Assembly (NCBI RefSeq): GCF_000016285.1
Contig: NC_011989.1
Location: 3,256,001 to 3,320,000 of the forward strand
Source of the DNA: Allorhizobium ampelinum S4
GTDB taxonomy: Bacteria > Pseudomonadota > Alphaproteobacteria > Rhizobiales > Rhizobiaceae
Reading direction: 5' to 3'
DNA: 64,000 nucleotides
Shown: piece by piece, positions 45,287 through 53,826 of the stretch
Numbering within the stretch: the first letter of the stretch is position 1
Layout of the letters: each line of letters starts with the position of its first letter
The notes under the pieces: model-generated
Seen by the model: only the letters and a program-made list of their open reading frames with translations
What the model was told of the DNA's origin: nothing
Databases searched by the model: none
Translations under genes and position numbers: made by a program

Positions 45287-46270
45287 GTGAGTCATGACCT
45301 TCCACCCCGACAGAAAAGTCGCGCCATAATTGCCCAAAGCCTGGAGCTTGCCCGTAAGCGGGAGCCTGAGGCGGCAAAAGCCATACTGGATGGCCTGGCT
45401 GGCGACCATGGCTTGCTGGCGCAGGCCGAATTGGGGCCGGACACCGCCCTTGGCTTGCCGCGCAAACTGCATTCAGCCTATCTGAAGCTGGCCAAGATCG
45501 CGGGCGACCGGCTGCGGGTCACCGGGCTGCAATATACACTTGCGCCACCGCCGGACCTGCTTTTGCCGTTTTCGCGCTTCAGCAGCGATGAGCGGCGAGA
45601 TATGGCGGTGCTGAACCGCGTGCCAGTCCCAAGAGTGCTGCACCAGATCTGGCTCGGAACACTCGCCCTACCACCCGCCTGCCAGGCCTGGGCCAACCAC
45701 TGCGCCCGCCATGGCTTTGCCTATCGGCTGTGGCGCGAGGCCGACCTTGAAGCACAGGGGTTTGACCAGCATCCAAGCTTTAAAGCCATGCTGGCGCGTA
45801 GCGACTATCCCGGTGCCGTGGATGTGGCGCGCTATCTGATCCTTGAGCAATTCGGCGGGATTTACCTCGACTGCGACTGGTATCCGGCCCGCGACGATAT
45901 CGGCTTTGCCGATTGCCTGCCTCTGACCGGGCTTGCCGCCCTTGCCGAGGACACGCCGCGTCAGACCGGCCTTGGTAGCCTGCTGCTGACCAATTCCTTG
46001 ATCGCCAGCCCGCCCGGCCATCCGGTCTTTGCGCGAATTATCGAGGCCATGCCGAAGGCCATGGCGCTGCTGCCGGATGCCCCCGCCTGGTGGTCCACCG
46101 GGCCGCTGCTGATGACCGTGGTGTTTCGAGGCACCAGCTTTACCGTTCCCGATTCCGGCTTTGTGGCCGCCAATCTGGAGCGCGGCGCGCCGTTTGCCGA
46201 GGTGGAGGCAGCGCGGGACACGGCTCTGACCACGGATGACGGATTGCTGATCGGCTGGAAATCCTGGTAG
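45287..46270 (+). CDS. GT32-like glycosyltransferase (DXD sugar-transferase)
   Basis: Predicted cytoplasmic or peripheral sugar transferase of 327 residues, OCH1/capsular-polysaccharide type. The signature is clear: VPRVLHQIWLG, then VDVARYLILEQFGGIYLDCDWYP, with the metal/nucleotide-binding Asp195-Cys-Asp197. GTG start at 45287 with a poor ribosome-binding site; the first 100 residues are helical and not recognised. It ends 4 bp from the convergent deacetylase gene. Acceptor and donor unknown, but the neighbours suggest a surface glycan. Confidence 0.82.
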   Translation: MSHDLPPRQKSRAIIAQSLELARKREPEAAKAILDGLAGDHGLLAQAELGPDTALGLPRKLHSAYLKLAKIAGDRLRVTGLQYTLAPPPDLLLPFSRFSSDERRDMAVLNRVPVPRVLHQIWLGTLALPPACQAWANHCARHGFAYRLWREADLEAQGFDQHPSFKAMLARSDYPGAVDVARYLILEQFGGIYLDCDWYPARDDIGFADCLPLTGLAALAEDTPRQTGLGSLLLTNSLIASPPGHPVFARIIEAMPKAMALLPDAPAWWSTGPLLMTVVFRGTSFTVPDSGFVAANLERGAPFAEVEAARDTALTTDDGLLIGWKSW

Positions 46271-46274
46271 GGGC

Positions 46275-47018
46275 TTATGCTTGCCGCTGAAGCAATGTCC
46301 GCGCACTTTCCCAGCGGCAGGCCGGATGGGTGGCGGTCAGGGCGAACAGCCGCGTCAGGAAATCCCAGACCGTTTGGTCATGAACCAGATGATGGGTCAG
46401 GATGCCAACGGCCTGTAAAGGCTCAGATTCTGGGGCCAGATAGGCAGCCAGTTCCGCAAACAGGATATCGGCATCACGTCCACCCCGCGTCCCGTGCCAA
46501 TCCATCACATCCACATGGGTGTTGAGAAGGGTTAGAGTATTTATGCGTTTCTCGCGGCCAAACACCGACAGCGTTGTAAAGCCGAGACCGGGCAACGCTG
46601 GCACCAGGGCCTTGTCGATCCGGTTCCACGGCGGCACCAGCATCGGCAGCAGTTGTTCACTGTAAAGACCGCGCAGCTTGGCCAATCCCTGGTGCAGCTC
46701 CTCCAGGACGATTGCTGCCGGGCGATGCCCACCCAGTTCCTGCTTCTTTTCACCCGGACCAGCATGGCTCTGGTGGTTCCAGCCATGCACGGCGATGGTG
46801 GCCAGGGATTCTGCCCGCAGCAATCCGGCCAGCGTCACACCCGTCGGCTCGGGAATGACCGCCAGCGTTAGCGGTATCTGGAAGCGGCGGGCAAGCACCA
46901 GCAGGGTCTCCAAGGGATCACTCGGCTCAACCGCATCGTCATCGCGCAGCCAGAATTTGACCGTCTTTCCTTGGGCGGCGAGATCATCGAGGCACTGCCT
47001 CAAGAGAATTTCAGACAT
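46275..47018 (-). CDS. Polysaccharide deacetylase-like protein
   Basis: Probable NodB-fold hydrolase of 247 residues. The ATG at 47018 (MSEILLRQCLDDLAAQG) overlaps the upstream GT4 gene by 8 bp; a longer open frame lies wholly inside that gene. Supporting segments: KFWLRDDDAVEPSD (metal Asp pair), IAVHGWNHQSHA (the HxxxH metal motif), LVPPWNRID and, near the end, GILTHHLVHD. The set matches atypical polysaccharide deacetylases found in rhizobial glycosyltransferase loci. No signal peptide, so it acts in the cytoplasm, perhaps on a sugar precursor. Confidence 0.8.
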   Translation of the reverse strand: MSEILLRQCLDDLAAQGKTVKFWLRDDDAVEPSDPLETLLVLARRFQIPLTLAVIPEPTGVTLAGLLRAESLATIAVHGWNHQSHAGPGEKKQELGGHRPAAIVLEELHQGLAKLRGLYSEQLLPMLVPPWNRIDKALVPALPGLGFTTLSVFGREKRINTLTLLNTHVDVMDWHGTRGGRDADILFAELAAYLAPESEPLQAVGILTHHLVHDQTVWDFLTRLFALTATHPACRWESARTLLQRQA

Positions 47019-48135
47019 TATGATTCCCGCCTTCCGATTCCAGTTTAGCACTATCGCCCAGGCACTGTTCCAGAACAGTGGAGAGCCGGGCGCTGGCCGC
47101 CTCAATCGAGCGATCCTGCTCGACCATCTTGCGGGCCGCTAGCGCCATTGTCTGGCGTTGGGACGCATCGGTCAGCAGGGTCGCTATGGCTTGCGCATAG
47201 GCAGACGCGTCGCCGGGCGGCGTTAAAAATCCCGTTATACCAGGCGCAACCACTTCCGGCACGCCCGCCACGGCCTCCGCCACGACCGGCAGGCCTGCCG
47301 CCTGCGCCTCCAGATAGGCAAGGCCATAGGCTTCGCCATGGCCCGGCCATACATAGACTGATGCAGTCGATAAGATCTCGGCGACGACTTGCGGCGGTTG
47401 CTCGCCCAGGAATTCGACTCGATCCGGCCGAAAGCCGGAAAACAGCGCCCGTACCTCGGCCCCACAAGGTCCATCACCCACCACCTTCAGCCGCCAGGCA
47501 AGATCGGGCAGCAGTGCCAGCGCTTTCGCCAGCGCGCCATAGCTGCTGATCTTATCGCCGGGGCGCATCATTGCAACGGTTGCCAGCAGATGTTGCTCTG
47601 GCTGCCGCAGGCGGGCAAGAAAGGCCTGCGCATCGATAAAAGGGGTTAGCCGAGCCAGCCGGGCTTGCGGAGCGACGGCCTGCAAGCCCTGCATATCCCG
47701 CGCCGTCAGGCAGAGATTGACAGCAGCACTCCTGATCGTATCCAGCAACCTGTCCTGAAAACCAGCCCAGACGCCCAGATTGCGCCGCTGAGAATAGGAA
47801 GCCTCGGCGGTGACATAGGGAATGGCGAACCGGCGGCAGAGCAGCGGTCCGATCAGGTCCGGCGCCTTGTAATAAGGGTGATAGCAAAACCACAGATCCG
47901 GTTTGCCCTGGCGCTGATAAAGCCCGGCCAGCCGCTCGATCTCTTCCTGCGCCGCCTCGGCCAGATCCGGCAGAACCGTCTCCGGCGTCGCGTGGAAACT
48001 GCGCAGATCAGACGCCACGCTGACATCATGGCCCGCCAGCCGCAAAGCCCGCAACAGGAGGCGCGCCATCAGCCGGTCGCCGGAAGGGACCGGATGGTCA
48101 GGGGATTTCAACGGCGCGTAAAAGCCGATTTTCAT
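47011..48135 (-). CDS. GT4-family glycosyltransferase
   Basis: Glycosyltransferase of 374 residues, GT-B fold. The ATG at 48135 (MKIGFYAPLKSPDHPVPSGDRLMARLL) has GAGG 6 bases upstream; the 26 extra codons above it lack a site. Donor-domain features: LKVVGDGPCGAEVRAL, VYVWPGHGEAYGLAYLEAQAAGLPVVAEAVAGVPEVV (E-x7-E). It is coupled to the deacetylase by an 8-bp overlap. Divergent from the nucleotide-sugar dehydrogenase gene. Confidence 0.86.
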   Translation of the reverse strand: MKIGFYAPLKSPDHPVPSGDRLMARLLLRALRLAGHDVSVASDLRSFHATPETVLPDLAEAAQEEIERLAGLYQRQGKPDLWFCYHPYYKAPDLIGPLLCRRFAIPYVTAEASYSQRRNLGVWAGFQDRLLDTIRSAAVNLCLTARDMQGLQAVAPQARLARLTPFIDAQAFLARLRQPEQHLLATVAMMRPGDKISSYGALAKALALLPDLAWRLKVVGDGPCGAEVRALFSGFRPDRVEFLGEQPPQVVAEILSTASVYVWPGHGEAYGLAYLEAQAAGLPVVAEAVAGVPEVVAPGITGFLTPPGDASAYAQAIATLLTDASQRQTMALAARKMVEQDRSIEAASARLSTVLEQCLGDSAKLESEGGNHNV

Positions 48136-48326
48136 GGGCAGCCTCATCGTCATGCAGGGACATGTGCGCAGTCCGCAGGCTGTTGCAAGAGGCAGATGCA
48201 GATTTCTCGCCACCCATCACAGCCGATCAACATTGCCCGACAAGATCATCGCACACCCTTGACATCCCATCATGCGAACCGCAACTGAAGCCGGTATTGA
48301 AATCGCCTGCGGAGCTTTATCCCACC
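48136..48326. promoter_or_regulatory. Divergent gap, GT4 / nucleotide-sugar dehydrogenase
   Basis: 191 bp that must hold both promoters. Open frames run through it in both directions but none begins with a good ribosome-binding site. No operator-like repeat was noticed. Confidence 0.35.
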
Positions 48327-49679
48327 ATGTCCCATCATCCCGTTGCCGCCGAATTGCTGTCCGCCATCCAGTCCCGCCGCGCCAAGGCAGCGGTGATCGG
48401 CCTCGGCTATGTCGGCCTGCCGCTGGCCATCAGTATTGCCAAGGCCGGATTCACGGTGATGGGCTTTGATATCGATGCCGCCAAGATCGACGCAATCGAG
48501 GCCGGAACAAGCTATATTGAGGCCGTACCAGAACATATTCTGCGCGAAGAATGCGCGGCGGGCCGCTTTTCCGCCACCTCGGATTTCCTGGCGCTGGCCG
48601 ATTATGACGTGATCGCCATTTGCGTACCGACGCCACTGACCAAGAACCGCGATCCAGATCTATCCTATGTGGAAAACACCTGCCGCCAGATTGCCAAGTC
48701 GCTCAGGCCCGGCCAGCTGATCGTGCTGGAATCCACCACCTATCCCGGCACCACGCAAGAAGTGGTGAAGCCGATCCTCGAACATTCGGAACTGCGGGCC
48801 GGAGAGCATTTCTTCCTCGGTTTTTCCCCAGAACGCGAAGATCCCGGCAATCGTGAGTTTGAAACCTCGACCATTCCAAAGATCATCGCCGGTGATGGCC
48901 CCGACGCTTCAGCCTTGATGGCGGCGTTTTATGGTGCCGTGGTCAAAACCGTGGTGCCGGTTTCCTCAACGGCGACGGCGGAAGCCGTCAAGCTGACCGA
49001 AAACATCTTCCGCGCCGTCAACATCGCCTTGGTCAATGAGCTGAAGCTGGTTTATGACGCCATGGGCATCGATGTCTGGGAAGTGATCGACGCCGCCAAG
49101 ACCAAGCCGTTCGGCTATATGCCGTTTTACCCCGGCCCCGGCCTCGGCGGCCATTGCATTCCCATCGATCCGTTTTACCTGACCTGGAAATCGCGCCAAT
49201 ATGACCAGCCGACACGGTTCATCGAGCTGGCGGGCGAGATCAACACGTCCATGCCGCATCACGTCGTCTCCAGGCTGGCCGAAGCACTGGACCGCAAAGC
49301 AGGAAAGGCGCTGAGCCGGTCGCGCGTGCTGATCCTGGGTCTGGCCTACAAGAAAAACGTCCCCGACATCAGGGAGAGCCCGTCGCTGCGGCTGATGGAG
49401 CTTATTCTGGAGCGCGGCGCCGAAGTCGCCTATTTCGACCCCTTCCTGCCCGAAATTCCGAAAACCCGCGAATATAGCCATCTGAAAGGCCGCCGCAGCA
49501 TCGCCTGGAACCAGGAAAACCTCGCCGCCTTCGATGCCGTGCTGATCGCCACCGACCATGACACCGTCGATTACCAGCAACTGGCCGATTGGTGTCCGCT
49601 GATCGTTGATACCCGCAACGCCCTTGCCCGCCGCAACATTGCCGATCAGGCAGCGGGCCACACGATTGTGAAAGCGTGA
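48327..49679 (+). CDS. Nucleotide-sugar 6-dehydrogenase (UDP-GlcNAc dehydrogenase, WbpA-like)
   Basis: Oxidises a UDP-sugar to the uronic acid with two NAD+. It has 450 residues from the ATG at 48327; the frame is open 55 codons upstream but the NAD-binding fold starts normally here (AAVIGLGYVGLPLAISIAKAG). Catalytic Cys277 in GPGLGGHCIPIDPFYL; conserved SPEREDPGN and ESTTYPGTT support the UDP-GlcNAc/ManNAc dehydrogenase subgroup over UDP-glucose dehydrogenase. 4 bp before the methyltransferase gene. Likely supplies acidic amino sugars to the nearby glycosyltransferases. Confidence 0.9.
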   Translation: MSHHPVAAELLSAIQSRRAKAAVIGLGYVGLPLAISIAKAGFTVMGFDIDAAKIDAIEAGTSYIEAVPEHILREECAAGRFSATSDFLALADYDVIAICVPTPLTKNRDPDLSYVENTCRQIAKSLRPGQLIVLESTTYPGTTQEVVKPILEHSELRAGEHFFLGFSPEREDPGNREFETSTIPKIIAGDGPDASALMAAFYGAVVKTVVPVSSTATAEAVKLTENIFRAVNIALVNELKLVYDAMGIDVWEVIDAAKTKPFGYMPFYPGPGLGGHCIPIDPFYLTWKSRQYDQPTRFIELAGEINTSMPHHVVSRLAEALDRKAGKALSRSRVLILGLAYKKNVPDIRESPSLRLMELILERGAEVAYFDPFLPEIPKTREYSHLKGRRSIAWNQENLAAFDAVLIATDHDTVDYQQLADWCPLIVDTRNALARRNIADQAAGHTIVKA

Positions 49680-49683
49680 TCCC

Positions 49684-50166
49684 ATGAGCCGTCTCGACAG
49701 TTTCATCAACCGCATGAGCGCCCAGCGCGATCTCTTGAACCATATCCGCGACGCCTATCCCCTGCCCGAAGGGCCGGTGCTGGAAATCGGCCTTGGCAAT
49801 GGCCGGACCTTCAGTCATTTGCGGGAGAATTTCACCGGTCGCCGCATCATCGCCTTCGACCGGCAATTGGGCGCGCATAAAAGCTCCATTCCGCAGGAAG
49901 GCGACCTGATTCTGGGGGAAATCGACCAGACCGGCCAGGACTTCACCGGCTGCGGCGCGGCCTTTGTCCATGCCGATATCGGCACGGGCTATCCCGATCG
50001 GGATGCGGTCACGCTGACCTGGCTGCCGGATATGGTGGCAGGGATGCTGCGGCCCGGCGGCTATGCGCTCAGTGGCCTGCCGCTCGACCACGAAGCACTC
50101 GAGCCGCTACCAGTCCTCGATCATATCGAGAAAGACCGCTATTTCTTCTATCGCCGCCTGCCCTGA
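49684..50166 (+). CDS. Small class I SAM-dependent methyltransferase
   Basis: Probable cytoplasmic methyltransferase of 160 residues. The SAM-binding motif I is VLEIGLGNGRTFSHL, followed by IIAFDRQLG (acidic residue at the end of strand 2) and a later MLRPGGYALSG segment. Shorter than most of the class (the usual range is 200-280), lacking an extra substrate domain. It starts 4 bp after the nucleotide-sugar dehydrogenase and is probably co-translated; a sugar or lipid O-methylation role would fit but is inference. Confidence 0.8.
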   Translation: MSRLDSFINRMSAQRDLLNHIRDAYPLPEGPVLEIGLGNGRTFSHLRENFTGRRIIAFDRQLGAHKSSIPQEGDLILGEIDQTGQDFTGCGAAFVHADIGTGYPDRDAVTLTWLPDMVAGMLRPGGYALSGLPLDHEALEPLPVLDHIEKDRYFFYRRLP

Positions 50167-50261: not shown

Positions 50262-50726
50262 CTAATCGACAAGAGAGAGCTGACCCAAGCGAACAGTGTC
50301 GAGTTCGGTTGTCATTGCCCGAAGTCGCTCTGCAAGTGCACGGCTGAACTCCATGCTCATACGCGGGCTATCGGCCATGACCTTGCCAAGACAGTCCTTG
50401 GCGATGCGAAGCGTTTCGACCTCGGTTGCGGCGCGAGCGGTCATCCGTCTCGGACCATGGCAAAGAAGCGACATTTCACCGATGATGGATTTGCTGTCAG
50501 CCTCGCCGATTCTGACTTCACCTGTGGGCGGGCCTGACAGCAAGTCAACCTTTCCCGACAGGATGACATAAGCGGAATCACCGCCATCACCTTGGCGAAA
50601 CAAAATGTCTCCGGGCTTATACGTGGCCCTTTGTGAGGCGAAGGCCAGGAGCTTCAGTTTGCACGGATCAACGTGCTTGAAGTATGGAATATTCCGCAAT
50701 AGCTGCACTTCGTCTCGCAGTAACAT
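50262..50726 (-). CDS. Stand-alone cyclic-nucleotide-binding domain protein
   Basis: 154 residues from the ATG at 50726 (MLLRDEVQLLRNIPYF); TTG and GTG codons just upstream are alternatives. A single cNMP-binding beta-roll: PGDILFRQGDGGDSAYVILSGKVDLL, then the phosphate-binding cassette GEMSLLCHGPRRMTARA with the conserved Glu and Arg, then a helical tail. There is no helix-turn-helix, so it is not a Crp-type regulator; it is a ligand-binding protein that could bind or control a partner. It lies 39 bp downstream of the degenerate ABC-exporter gene on the same strand, almost surely the same operon. Confidence 0.82.
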   Translation of the reverse strand: MLLRDEVQLLRNIPYFKHVDPCKLKLLAFASQRATYKPGDILFRQGDGGDSAYVILSGKVDLLSGPPTGEVRIGEADSKSIIGEMSLLCHGPRRMTARAATEVETLRIAKDCLGKVMADSPRMSMEFSRALAERLRAMTTELDTVRLGQLSLVD

Positions 50727-50765
50727 GCTTGCCACCAACTTCCGGGTTTTCGGTGGCCTGACCCC

Positions 50766-53486
50766 TCATGCCACCAATGCCTTGAAAATATCATTTTCAT
50801 TGCCCAAGGCCTCGAACGTCCCGTCCGCGACCAATGAACCGCTGTCGAGTATCAGAACACGATCAAAGTTTTTTGACAATGATGTGTTCGACAAAACCCA
50901 AAGGATAGAGGGATCATTGTCCTGCTCGCGCAGAAATGCAAGCACATCCTTAACGATATCCTCCTGAACACGCGCGTCGAGGCCCGGCAGGGCTTTGTTG
51001 AAGATATAATAGTCGCACCGCCGCACCAGCGCGCGGGCAAGGTTGAGCTTGTGGCGCTGAACGATGGTCAGCCTGCGGCCACCGCTGCCGATGTCGAACT
51101 CCAGGCCCAGGGCCAGGAATCGCTCTGTCAGGCCTTTCTTCGAGCTTAGTTTTGCCGCCAGCTCGCGGAATTTCGGCAGGGCTTCGGGATTGCGATTGAC
51201 GAGTTTGCCGAAGATCACGTTCTCGCGCAGCGTCGCCGCCGCCATGTAGCGATGCGGATCGTAGCGTTCGATACTATGGCGCAGGTCCGGTGACAGGTTG
51301 TCGTGAAACAGGTCGCGGGCGCCGACAATCTTGTCCATCACTTCAGCCGTCAGCACACCCATACGATAGCGCGGCTCGACATAATTGAAGCTGAGCCGGA
51401 TCATTGCCCGTTGCTCTTCCTCGTTCGGCACCGGCTTGGTCCGGCCTTGAAGGCGTTGCAGGATCTGTTGGTAAAACACCACGTCATCAGCGGTCAGGAC
51501 ATCGAGCTGCTGGAAGAACGGGTGATCGGCTGGCAGACCGCCGAAGATTTCCACAAGGTTTTCCGCAATCAGGAAACCCATCTCGTAAAATAGGCTGAGC
51601 AGACCGGCGCGCTCCAGCACATCATAAAAATAATCGCTTTGATGGGCATAGACAGGTCCATTGACGATCGGACGCAGCGTCCCGAACAACAGGTTTTCTC
51701 CCAATGTCGCCTCGGCATTATAAGCATTGGGGTCAAAGTGAACCACGAGATTGGCAAGACCCTGCCGCTGCAATTCATCACGCAGCGCCAGACGCAACTC
51801 CACCACTTTTTCTGTCAGGTCCGGATATTCAAGCGGATCGACGATGGAATGCAGCGCCAGTTCCATCACGTCGCTGGTCAGTTTCACGGTATCCAGCGCC
51901 GTCAAAATCGATTTTTTCAGGTCGCTGGCTTCACCGTGCAACACGGACGTCGCCCGCCGGTCAATCCAGTCGGCATTGGGATCGAGATCGGAGTTCTCAG
52001 ATAATTGCGCTTCCTTGATCTCCCAACGGCGTTTGATCGCCTCGCGCCCGGTATAGTTCACCGAATTGGTCGGTGCATGTTTCAGCCCGTAAATCAGGTT
52101 TTCCTTGAGGCTGCCATGAAAGAAATAACCGTCGGCAGATACATAGGAAATAGCCCGGCCCGTCACCGATTCCGGCAATTCCAGCAGGTCAGCATCACCA
52201 AGCACGATCTTTCCCGCCACCGGCCAGTTCAACCGGCCAATGGCCTCAGCCATCACTTCCGCACCAACGCCGCGATTGTCGATAGCGGCAATCGTCTCTC
52301 CCTGTCCAATTTTCAGGCTGAGATTTTCCACCACCTTGGCACCGCCGCTATCTTGCAAGGTCACATTCTGCAAGGCGAGTTGGCCAGCACGGGTAGCCAT
52401 TCCCACAGGCGCCAACGCCTGTAGTGCTGGCTCAATCATCTGCGGCGGCTCGAATTGTTCGAGCACCTGTTCATATTTTACCTGAACGTCCTGGCGCGAC
52501 TGGTCCCAGTCGATCAGCTCTTTCAACGGACCGGGAAGATCCTTGTAGGCATTGATGACAGCCACCAGCTGGCCCACGTCCAGACTGCCCTTCAGCGCGA
52601 AATAGCCGCCGATGGAATAGAACAGGAAGGGCGTCAGCTGCGACAGGAAATTATTGAAAAATTTGACGAAAAACTTCCAGCGATAGAGATCGTAGCGAAT
52701 CTTGAAGATATCGCCGAGCCGCTTCGAAATATCGGCGCGTTCATAATTCGACGTATCATATGCATGGATCGTGCCGACGCCATCGACGATTTCTCCGACT
52801 TTTCCGGCCAATTGCCGGGCCTGAAGCTGCCGCTGACGACCAAGAATAAGCAAGCGACGGCGCATTTTGGGAATGATGCCGACCTGAAGCGCCACCATTG
52901 CGCCTGCAATCGTGCCAAGCCAGAAACTTTGCAGGAAAATGAAGAACAGCGCCGCCAAGGCCTGACCGCCCAGCATAGTGGGCTGCACAAAGGCATCCCC
53001 CGTAAAGCCGCCAAACGGCTCGACCTCGTCGCGGACCATGGTCGAGACTTCAGAGGAATGGATCTGCTTGACATAGCTTGGCGGGAACCGCAGCACCCGG
53101 TCCACAAGCTCATAGCGGATCCGCCGCAAAAGGCGTTCTCCAAGCCTACCCTTATAGGTATTGATGTAGAATTTAAACAACCCGTTGATGATCACCAGCA
53201 GCAGGAAGACGCCACTTAACGCCATCAGGCTCGACATGCGATCAAGCGGTATCCCGCCCGAATGCAATGACCAATCGGTCAAAGGCACGGTCCAGTCGAA
53301 GGCAAACAGCGGTTGTCGGGAATCCGGCGCTTCGAACCCGCTTCCCTGGATCGGCCCATTGATGATGCGCTTGGGCAGGTCGAAGGCCAGAAAATACGGC
53401 ACCATCGACAGGATAACAATCGTCAGAACCCAGATCTGCTGCTTGCGCGTATGCCGCCATATATAAAGGAGTAGGCTTTTTTCCAT
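50766..53486 (-). CDS. ABC-exporter-like membrane protein with degenerate, expanded nucleotide-binding region
   Basis: 906 residues from the ATG at 53486 (MEKSLLLYIWRHTRK); an in-frame ATG at 53543 adds 19 residues; neither has a good ribosome-binding site. Residues 17-330 form an ABC-exporter membrane domain with about six helices. The C-terminal half aligns in order with an exporter ATPase but the catalytic residues are gone. The Walker A position reads DNRGVGAEVMAEA (402-415, no Lys-Ser/Thr). The Q-loop Gln is replaced in YVSADGYFF. The signature is GSGGRRLTIVQRHKLNLARAL (from about 799). Walker B is YYIFNKALPGLD (Asn830-Lys831 instead of Asp-Glu). The switch His is replaced by Asn867. The motif (S/T)Lx-EN-xx(Y/F)G occurs three times (459-467, 594-602, 752-760) instead of once, and the segment between Walker A and signature is about 390 residues instead of about 100. 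Paired with a cNMP-binding protein. Function unknown. Confidence 0.8.
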   Translation of the reverse strand: MEKSLLLYIWRHTRKQQIWVLTIVILSMVPYFLAFDLPKRIINGPIQGSGFEAPDSRQPLFAFDWTVPLTDWSLHSGGIPLDRMSSLMALSGVFLLLVIINGLFKFYINTYKGRLGERLLRRIRYELVDRVLRFPPSYVKQIHSSEVSTMVRDEVEPFGGFTGDAFVQPTMLGGQALAALFFIFLQSFWLGTIAGAMVALQVGIIPKMRRRLLILGRQRQLQARQLAGKVGEIVDGVGTIHAYDTSNYERADISKRLGDIFKIRYDLYRWKFFVKFFNNFLSQLTPFLFYSIGGYFALKGSLDVGQLVAVINAYKDLPGPLKELIDWDQSRQDVQVKYEQVLEQFEPPQMIEPALQALAPVGMATRAGQLALQNVTLQDSGGAKVVENLSLKIGQGETIAAIDNRGVGAEVMAEAIGRLNWPVAGKIVLGDADLLELPESVTGRAISYVSADGYFFHGSLKENLIYGLKHAPTNSVNYTGREAIKRRWEIKEAQLSENSDLDPNADWIDRRATSVLHGEASDLKKSILTALDTVKLTSDVMELALHSIVDPLEYPDLTEKVVELRLALRDELQRQGLANLVVHFDPNAYNAEATLGENLLFGTLRPIVNGPVYAHQSDYFYDVLERAGLLSLFYEMGFLIAENLVEIFGGLPADHPFFQQLDVLTADDVVFYQQILQRLQGRTKPVPNEEEQRAMIRLSFNYVEPRYRMGVLTAEVMDKIVGARDLFHDNLSPDLRHSIERYDPHRYMAAATLRENVIFGKLVNRNPEALPKFRELAAKLSSKKGLTERFLALGLEFDIGSGGRRLTIVQRHKLNLARALVRRCDYYIFNKALPGLDARVQEDIVKDVLAFLREQDNDPSILWVLSNTSLSKNFDRVLILDSGSLVADGTFEALGNENDIFKALVA

Positions 53487-53826
53487 CAGCTGGTTATCAC
53501 GCGGACCACTATTCGTGCCGGACAACGCCCGTGCGTCACCCATTCAAGACAATTGTTTATAAGGACAAGCCAGGCTGCCGGAAAGCCATCCTGCCCAGCA
53601 GGATAGCAAAAAAACCAAACCGCAGCACCAAAGTGATCGCAGGTGAGTAGCAAAAAGGCAATCCTTATCCGGCTTACCACCATAGCAAGACCCAAAGACG
53701 TGAACACATCCTCGCCTTGCACGCAAAGAGCCCGGGAAAAGCCGATCTGGCCGGTGTTTCACCTGGAGCCCGCTGCGTTATGCCAGTAGATAATCCTGAC
53801 GGACATCGCTCACCGGATCGGACGCC
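53487..53826. other. Divergent gap between the degenerate ABC gene and sbcD
   Basis: About 340 bp (283 bp if the ABC protein starts at 53543). Contains a small hairpin ATCCTGC-CCA-GCAGGAT followed by an A7 run, but no T-tract in the sense direction. No further gene is supported. Confidence 0.4.

Follow-up and report, generated by a model that had tools for sequence, protein, structure and literature searches.

A degenerate ABC-exporter-like protein encoded beside a predicted cyclic-nucleotide-binding protein in Allorhizobium ampelinum S4

In the textbook view, ATP-binding cassette (ABC) exporters run as ATP motors, and several described proteins depart from that role. SUR1/SUR2 and CFTR have exporter folds turned to regulation or conduction instead of pumping; the heterodimeric exporters TAP, TmrAB and BmrCD have one degenerate ATPase half and a partner half with the active site; and SbmA/BacA is an exporter-like membrane half that works without an ATPase domain. 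Here, we describe a gene pair in a 64,000-nucleotide stretch of the Allorhizobium ampelinum S4 genome (contig NC_011989.1, positions 3,256,001 to 3,320,000; hereafter the window; the species appears below as A. vitis). The pair encodes a 925-residue ABC-exporter-like protein with a degenerate ATPase half and a small cyclic-nucleotide-binding (CNB) protein. The evidence leaves us evenly poised on a model in which the larger protein is a pseudo-ATPase with an exporter fold that is controlled by its cyclic-nucleotide partner and serves a surface-glycan pathway. Its family differs from type IV (ABCB/MsbA-type) exporters in its lost catalytic residues, a long insertion between Q-loop and signature, and the CNB partner. 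With SUR1/SUR2 and CFTR it shares a re-used exporter fold, although those proteins still bind ATP and, to our knowledge, have neither a CNB partner nor a triplicated helical subdomain. With TAP, TmrAB and BmrCD it shares the degenerate ATPase half, but the scan of genes beside the window pair revealed none for a competent partner. Unlike SbmA/BacA, the family keeps its ATPase domain as a folded, degenerate module, and SbmA_BacA is absent from the four Pfam families that match the 925-residue protein up to an E-value of 1.

The family is unnamed in Pfam and NCBIfam, and we found no published description of it in the open-access literature. Plasmid records label its members ‘ABC transporter ATP-binding protein’ or the like. 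One member, from Ruegeria and a fusion judging by its length and name, is labelled a cyclic nucleotide-binding domain-containing protein. By fold, the 925-residue protein is a type IV (MsbA-type) ABC exporter, in which an ABC_membrane domain is followed by a RecA-like and helical ATPase domain. ABC_membrane spans residues 104-330 (Pfam, E 1.3e-20), and the AlphaFold2 model, with a mean predicted local distance difference test (pLDDT) score of 76.6, has an exporter fold whose structural matches in the PDB include TmrAB, TM287/288, BmrCD and SUR among many exporter-fold rows. A first-pass annotation of the window, made from the letters alone, had read the membrane half as a normal exporter domain; the Pfam match and the predicted structure agree with it, and the open reading frame (ORF) and coordinates that it gave are correct. 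The ATPase half is matched by ABC_tran below threshold only (20.3 bits vs a cut-off of 25). No NCBIfam exporter model exceeds its curated cut-off among the best 25 of 108 matches, the best of those listed being MsbA_lipidA with 131.6 bits vs a cut-off of 602.

Three exporters with intact motifs, encoded in the same genome, served as the alignment references for the catalytic positions, and we scored six residues: Walker A Lys, Walker A Ser/Thr, Q-loop Gln, Walker B Asp, Walker B Glu and the switch His. The window protein retains none of the six, as had been claimed for its ATPase half from the letters. The family alignment has 116 rows, one of them a duplicate, and thus 115 distinct members, of which five belong to a divergent subfamily. 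Walker A Lys is kept in 53 of these members, Walker A Ser/Thr in 10, Q-loop Gln in 19, Walker B Asp in 21, Walker B Glu in 42 and the switch His in 23. We looked among these homologues for intact motifs and found no member with all six residues, while 34, including the window protein, have none. The replacements recur: Walker A Ser/Thr has become Glu or Asp in 83/116 alignment rows, and Walker B Asp has become Asn in 62/116. Judged by this alignment, the nucleotide-binding domain is a pseudo-ATPase.

The degenerate gene is nevertheless well preserved. The family is present in 25/60 relatives, with full-length frames kept, and in 107/289 sampled alphaproteobacterial genomes. Two A. vitis records match the 925-residue protein at 99%. 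For the whole gene, degenerate half included, the ratio of nonsynonymous to synonymous substitution rates (dN/dS) is 0.021 against another A. vitis strain and 0.096-0.187 against four more distant orthologues, for which synonymous sites are near saturation. When four regions of the gene are compared, the membrane half has the lowest dN/dS in each of the four comparisons whose values are finite, and in the remaining one it has the lowest of the finite values; N849, in Walker B, is constant in 51/51 rows of alignment A2. Substitution rates thus indicate that the gene, with its degenerate half, is under purifying selection.

The insertion between Q-loop and signature is repetitive. As the first-pass annotation had noted, the motif (S/T)LxEN-xx-(Y/F)G occurs three times (52086-52112, 51681-51707 and 51207-51233), at spacings of exactly 135 and 158 residues. 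In copies 2 and 3, the Asn of the motif is constant in 116/116 alignment rows, and the profiles of these two copies align in hhalign over 82 columns (E 4.6e-17, probability 98.8), vs probabilities of 0.1-2.0 in seven control comparisons with membrane segments. By profile comparison, copies 2 and 3 are true internal repeats, beyond chance, and the suggested internal repetition is in this respect genuine. In the predicted fold of the insertion, residues 606-748 weakly match the helical subdomains of exporter ATPases in a second structure aligner, while Foldseek returned no match for the insertion model with an E-value up to 0.001. Being seen by one aligner only, and with a modest Z, the match is supporting evidence and not decisive.

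The CNB gene begins 39 bp past the stop codon of the ABC-like gene. Pfam gives cNMP_binding only (E 5.7e-19), and we found no DNA-binding domain in the protein, such as the C-terminal helix-turn-helix of CRP/FNR transcription factors; the earlier description of a 154-residue CNB protein lacking a DNA-binding domain was accurate. Over 158 distinct CNB sequences, the phosphate-binding cassette keeps its Gly in 158, its Glu in 148 and its Arg in 157, and the residue after the Arg is Thr in 135. The same domain, with its Gly-Glu and Arg cassette, is found in PDB 5d1i (~34-36% identity to the CNB family), in CRP-family proteins, PKA and PKG, and in the SthK and mll3241 channels. In contrast to these known proteins, the CNB of the family is stand-alone or fused to the exporter-like protein and has no DNA-binding or enzyme domain. 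From the conserved pocket, we infer that it binds a cyclic nucleotide.

The two genes travel together. We collected contexts from 87 of the 107 family-positive genomes and from partial matches of a phylum sample, giving 100 contexts plus the window (L-numbers are labels of analysed loci). Seven contexts lack a full-length family ORF (L089-L094 and L180), and the remaining 94 were scored. CNB is adjacent or fused in 88/94, which answers the question of co-occurrence raised with the first-pass annotation: it is fused in 11, encoded on the same strand within 140 bp in 76 and at ~620 bp in one (L134). The natural fusions carry CNB at the C-terminal end and are 976-1103 residues long, with the L029 type at 1067. 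CNB is likewise present in 29/30 loci of relatives, the single miss being at a contig end, and in 78/80 named Rhizobiales loci, where the misses are L209 (contig end) and L214. Two divergent members outside the 94, L093 and L094, have CNB-bearing ORFs at ~1 kb (320 residues) and ~4 kb (503 residues), respectively. The genome itself encodes a 54% paralogue of the 925-residue protein on a different contig, and there too a CNB protein follows.

The paralogous pair also provides a connection to cyclic-nucleotide synthesis. Of the three class III cyclase genes (PF00211) in the genome, two lie directly upstream of this pair; one of the two encodes Fer2 and cyclase domains (Pfam) after an N-terminal part that is hydrophobic by eye. 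We had suspected a link to type I secretion from the ORF lengths beside the paralogue, and rejected it when Pfam showed these two cyclases instead; among the ten proteins scanned, a genuine exporter and HlyD pair appeared beside L101 only. Six Rhizobiaceae genomes (L201-L206), each with 4-5 cyclases, encode one of these downstream of the pair, and a Fer2-type cyclase lies near the pair at L098. The L205 cyclase, the one among L201-L206 that was checked for Fer2, has Fer2 and cyclase domains as does the paralogue-adjacent one, the arrangement of CyaC. The layout published for CyaC of Sinorhizobium meliloti, a cyclase that responds to quinone redox state, is like that of the Fer2 and cyclase protein beside the A. 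vitis paralogue; in the sections of that paper drawn on here, the CyaC partners named are transcription factors, with no ABC-like protein among them (PMC10463352). Among 289 Alphaproteobacteria, PF00211 is present in 106/107 family-positive vs 87/182 family-negative genomes, and among cyclase-positive genomes its median copy number is higher with the family in each of four size bins (counts near 11 seem to be lower bounds). As physical linkage is not clearly above the level expected from cyclase-rich genomes, it is the result in the window's own genome that carries the link. A gene with a metallo-beta-lactamase fold occurs in 35 contexts, including the A. vitis paralogue and L201-L206. The L205 protein matches a cyclic-nucleotide-degrading phosphodiesterase model far below threshold (50 bits vs a cut-off of 400; NCBIfam) and is outscored there by RNase Z, which leaves a function in cyclic-nucleotide turnover as a weak lead only. 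At L088:4069-4899, a metallo-beta-lactamase-fold gene is clustered with two cyclases and the paralogous pair; it may encode a cyclic-nucleotide phosphodiesterase, again no more than a weak lead.

Glycosyltransferase (GT) genes flank the pair, which makes a surface-glycan or glycolipid pathway its probable client. A related glycosyltransferase is found in 63/93 and 74/80 contexts, and the gene order GT-GT-GT-ABC-CNB is common to R. leguminosarum and S. meliloti. On the opposite side of the window pair lies an SbcD gene, which was found in the two A. vitis loci only. In S. meliloti (L268), the order is OppB, OppC, GT28, GT1, GT28, ABC-like, CNB and FkbM. The same plasmid carries, elsewhere, a 597-residue exporter (L284) with a full ABC_tran match that follows two GT2 ORFs. 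MsbA2 (SMb21191) of this species is described as a polysaccharide exporter with glycosyltransferase neighbours on pSymB (PMC3687685, PMC12239276), in the order acyltransferase-GT-GT-msbA2 (PMC3687685). We judged it unlikely that the family member is MsbA2, since the L268 order differs, a distinction by gene order and not by sequence; gene order makes L284 the more likely MsbA2. SMb20813 was also considered as the family member: one paper gives it as the msbA homologue of S. meliloti, and another mentions SMb20811 alone.

Collectively, these data suggest a model in which the two genes form one membrane device. In normal exporters, the coupling helices of the membrane half are gripped by the helical subdomain. 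In the window protein, this subdomain appears from sequence, with support from the models, to have been duplicated, giving three Q-loop-like modules in one chain. The small protein would bind a cyclic nucleotide and dock on the pseudo-ATPase domain, as suggested by the adjoining genes and by the natural fusions. Ligand binding, instead of ATP hydrolysis, would then switch the membrane half. The three helical modules would relay the signal either to the membrane half or to enzymes that partner it in a glycan pathway, the client that the gene neighbourhoods point to. The switch may gate the movement of a substrate down its gradient, or it may position glycosyltransferases. A more specific version, which we consider less likely than not, is a family of exporter-fold transporters or channels, widespread in one bacterial class, that has abandoned ATP and is opened when a CNB subunit, docked or fused, binds cyclic nucleotide; its dead ATPase domain would have been tripled into a mechanical transmission from that subunit to the membrane half.

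Several observations weigh against this model. Copy 1 of the motif aligns with copies 2 and 3 over only 25 and 31 columns (E 2.5e-6 and 2.7e-5), so that its similarity is short. No CNB gene was found in 6/94 fetched contexts, namely L095-L097, which belong to the divergent subfamily, and L115, L169 and L175, which are full-length members (L169 and L175 form one family grouping, f97). The window CNB, like its A. vitis relative L188, has Arg-Arg-Met in its cassette where the family majority has Arg-Thr-Ala, and its ligand or affinity may therefore differ. We found no cyclase match in the window; the third PF00211 gene of the genome is on a different contig; a cyclase lies near the pair in just 7/100 contexts (8 including a weak match) and 9/80 named loci; and the p-value for PF00211 co-presence (Fisher, 1.2e-23) is uncorrected for phylogeny. 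The glycan link is neighbourhood evidence only, drawn without a random-locus control from glycosyltransferases, which are common, and 30/93 contexts have no related one. Lastly, the distant member L164 (ORF at L164:5652-8330) keeps five of the six catalytic residues, closest to intact; it may represent an ancestral form or one that is still active, and some members may therefore still use ATP. Of the ideas put forward in the first-pass annotation, a degeneracy conserved across the family (0/115 intact), an internal duplication and a near-constant pairing of the two genes are supported; channel function, gating by cAMP or cGMP and ATP independence of every member are conjectural.

L164 also bears on the proposal that these proteins are still active ATPases with non-canonical residues, for which the cyclic nucleotide is merely a regulator. 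Walker A Lys in 53/115 and the catalytic Glu in 42/115 would fit such activity, but 34 members, the window protein included, have lost all six residues, and we think it very improbable. That the window copy is a recent pseudogene can practically be dismissed: motif loss by itself could resemble decay, but the full-length frames in relatives, the dN/dS of 0.02-0.19, the invariant N849 and the wide presence across the class rule it out.

Two further proposals accept that the domain is dead. The protein might be the degenerate half of a heterodimeric, ATP-driven exporter of the TAP/TmrAB kind, with its competent partner encoded elsewhere; degenerate halves are known in that class, the structural matches include TmrAB, TM287/288 and BmrCD, and the genome has other exporters, three of them with all six residues. 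Yet none of the scanned neighbours of the window pair encodes an exporter half, and the 11 fused members, at 976-1103 residues, are too short to contain a second one. The signature is lost besides the Walker motifs, so that neither composite site would be canonical, and we regard this arrangement as improbable. Alternatively, the protein could be a scaffold or regulator only, transporting nothing and, as SUR does in the KATP channel, holding glycosyltransferases and regulating them according to cyclic nucleotide. The lack of any catalytic residue in the window protein, the glycosyltransferase neighbours and the additional helical modules, which could be docking surfaces, agree with this, as does SUR among the structural matches, though it accounts for only some of many exporter-fold rows. 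However, conservation is strongest in the membrane half, which has the lowest dN/dS, as would suit a working pathway no less than a scaffold, and a pure scaffold seems to us unlikely. If the cyclic-nucleotide-controlled device is real, it would show how an ATP motor turns into a signal-controlled device with the whole fold kept, and bacterial cyclic AMP/GMP would gain a direct membrane target besides transcription factors. It would also give meaning to rhizobial and agrobacterial genes now annotated merely as ABC transporters, in a family found in over one third of the sampled alphaproteobacterial genomes.

Positions of the gene pair, its sequence features and the neighbouring genes within the window
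Feature	Position	Strand	Basis
ABC-exporter-like protein, degenerate ATPase half, 925 residues	50766..53543	-	Pfam ABC_membrane E 1.3e-20; AlphaFold2 model
Transmembrane half, residues 20-370	52434..53486	-	Pfam, model helices; coordinates converted from residue numbers
RecA-like core, first part, residues 385-475	52119..52391	-	Model strands 389-469
Degenerate Walker A DNRGVGAE, residues 422-429; Lys to A428, Ser/Thr to E429	52257..52280	-	Alignment
Q-loop position, Gln to A470	52134..52136	-	Alignment
Expanded helical region with repeats, residues 476-818	51090..52118	-	Profile comparison, models
Motif copy 1 SLKENLIYG, original Q-loop region, residue 478	52086..52112	-	Sequence
Motif copy 2 TLGENLLFG, residue 613	51681..51707	-	Sequence, profile comparison
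Motif copy 3 TLRENVIFG, residue 771	51207..51233	-	Sequence, profile comparison
Degenerate signature LTIVQ (vs LSGGQ), residues 825-829	51057..51071	-	Alignment
Degenerate Walker B YYIFNK, residues 845-850; Asp-Glu to N849, K850	50994..51011	-	Alignment
Switch position, His to S885	50889..50891	-	Alignment
Stand-alone CNB protein, 154 residues from ATG at 50726 (158 from TTG)	50262..50726	-	Pfam cNMP_binding E 5.7e-19
Phosphate-binding cassette GEMSLLCHGPRR, Glu and Arg kept, unusual residues after Arg	50445..50480	-	Alignment
DXD sugar transferase	45287..46270	+	Pfam Gly_transf_sug; homologues in 13 related loci
Polysaccharide deacetylase-like neighbour (by eye; no Pfam/NCBIfam match)	46275..47105	-	Homologues in 76 related loci
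GT1-type glycosyltransferase	47011..48213	-	Pfam; homologues in 103 related loci, perhaps not all orthologues
Nucleotide-sugar dehydrogenase	48162..49679	+	Pfam; NCBIfam TIGR03026 above cut-off; homologues in 29 related loci
Methyltransferase, Methyltransf_17	49684..50166	+	Pfam; homologues in 57 related loci

Beyond the main family, 39 of the 397 genomes in the phylum sample have a match at E-values up to 1e-30, and the sole match outside Alphaproteobacteria is a protein with the membrane half only. Such relatives, ~400 residues long, occur at L089:7540-8781, L090:7531-8730, L091:7001-8200 and L092:1-1149. We found no ABC ATPase domain in the L089 and L090 proteins or in their scanned neighbours, and a separate ABC ATPase gene, considered as a possible partner, was found among the scanned neighbours of none of L089, L090 and L092. 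The genes at L089 and L090 adjoin multicopper oxidase and other copper-resistance genes, and that at L092 is near cytochrome c genes. In a tree of membrane halves, these relatives group with the main family (support 95/99) and not with intact exporters; L093-L097 fall outside the main group, and the branches of the intact exporters are very long, their placement being unsure. Together, these results suggest that this lineage can maintain a membrane half in the absence of an ATPase, and the relatives may serve in metal handling as exporter-fold proteins that need no ATP. The divergent subfamily L093-L097 has the same repeats as the main family; the next gene at L095 carries a metallo-beta-lactamase domain at its end, and at L097 there are cyclase domains alongside. 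The family ORF at L102:5485-9507 encodes 1340 residues, with ~440 additional residues at the N-terminus.

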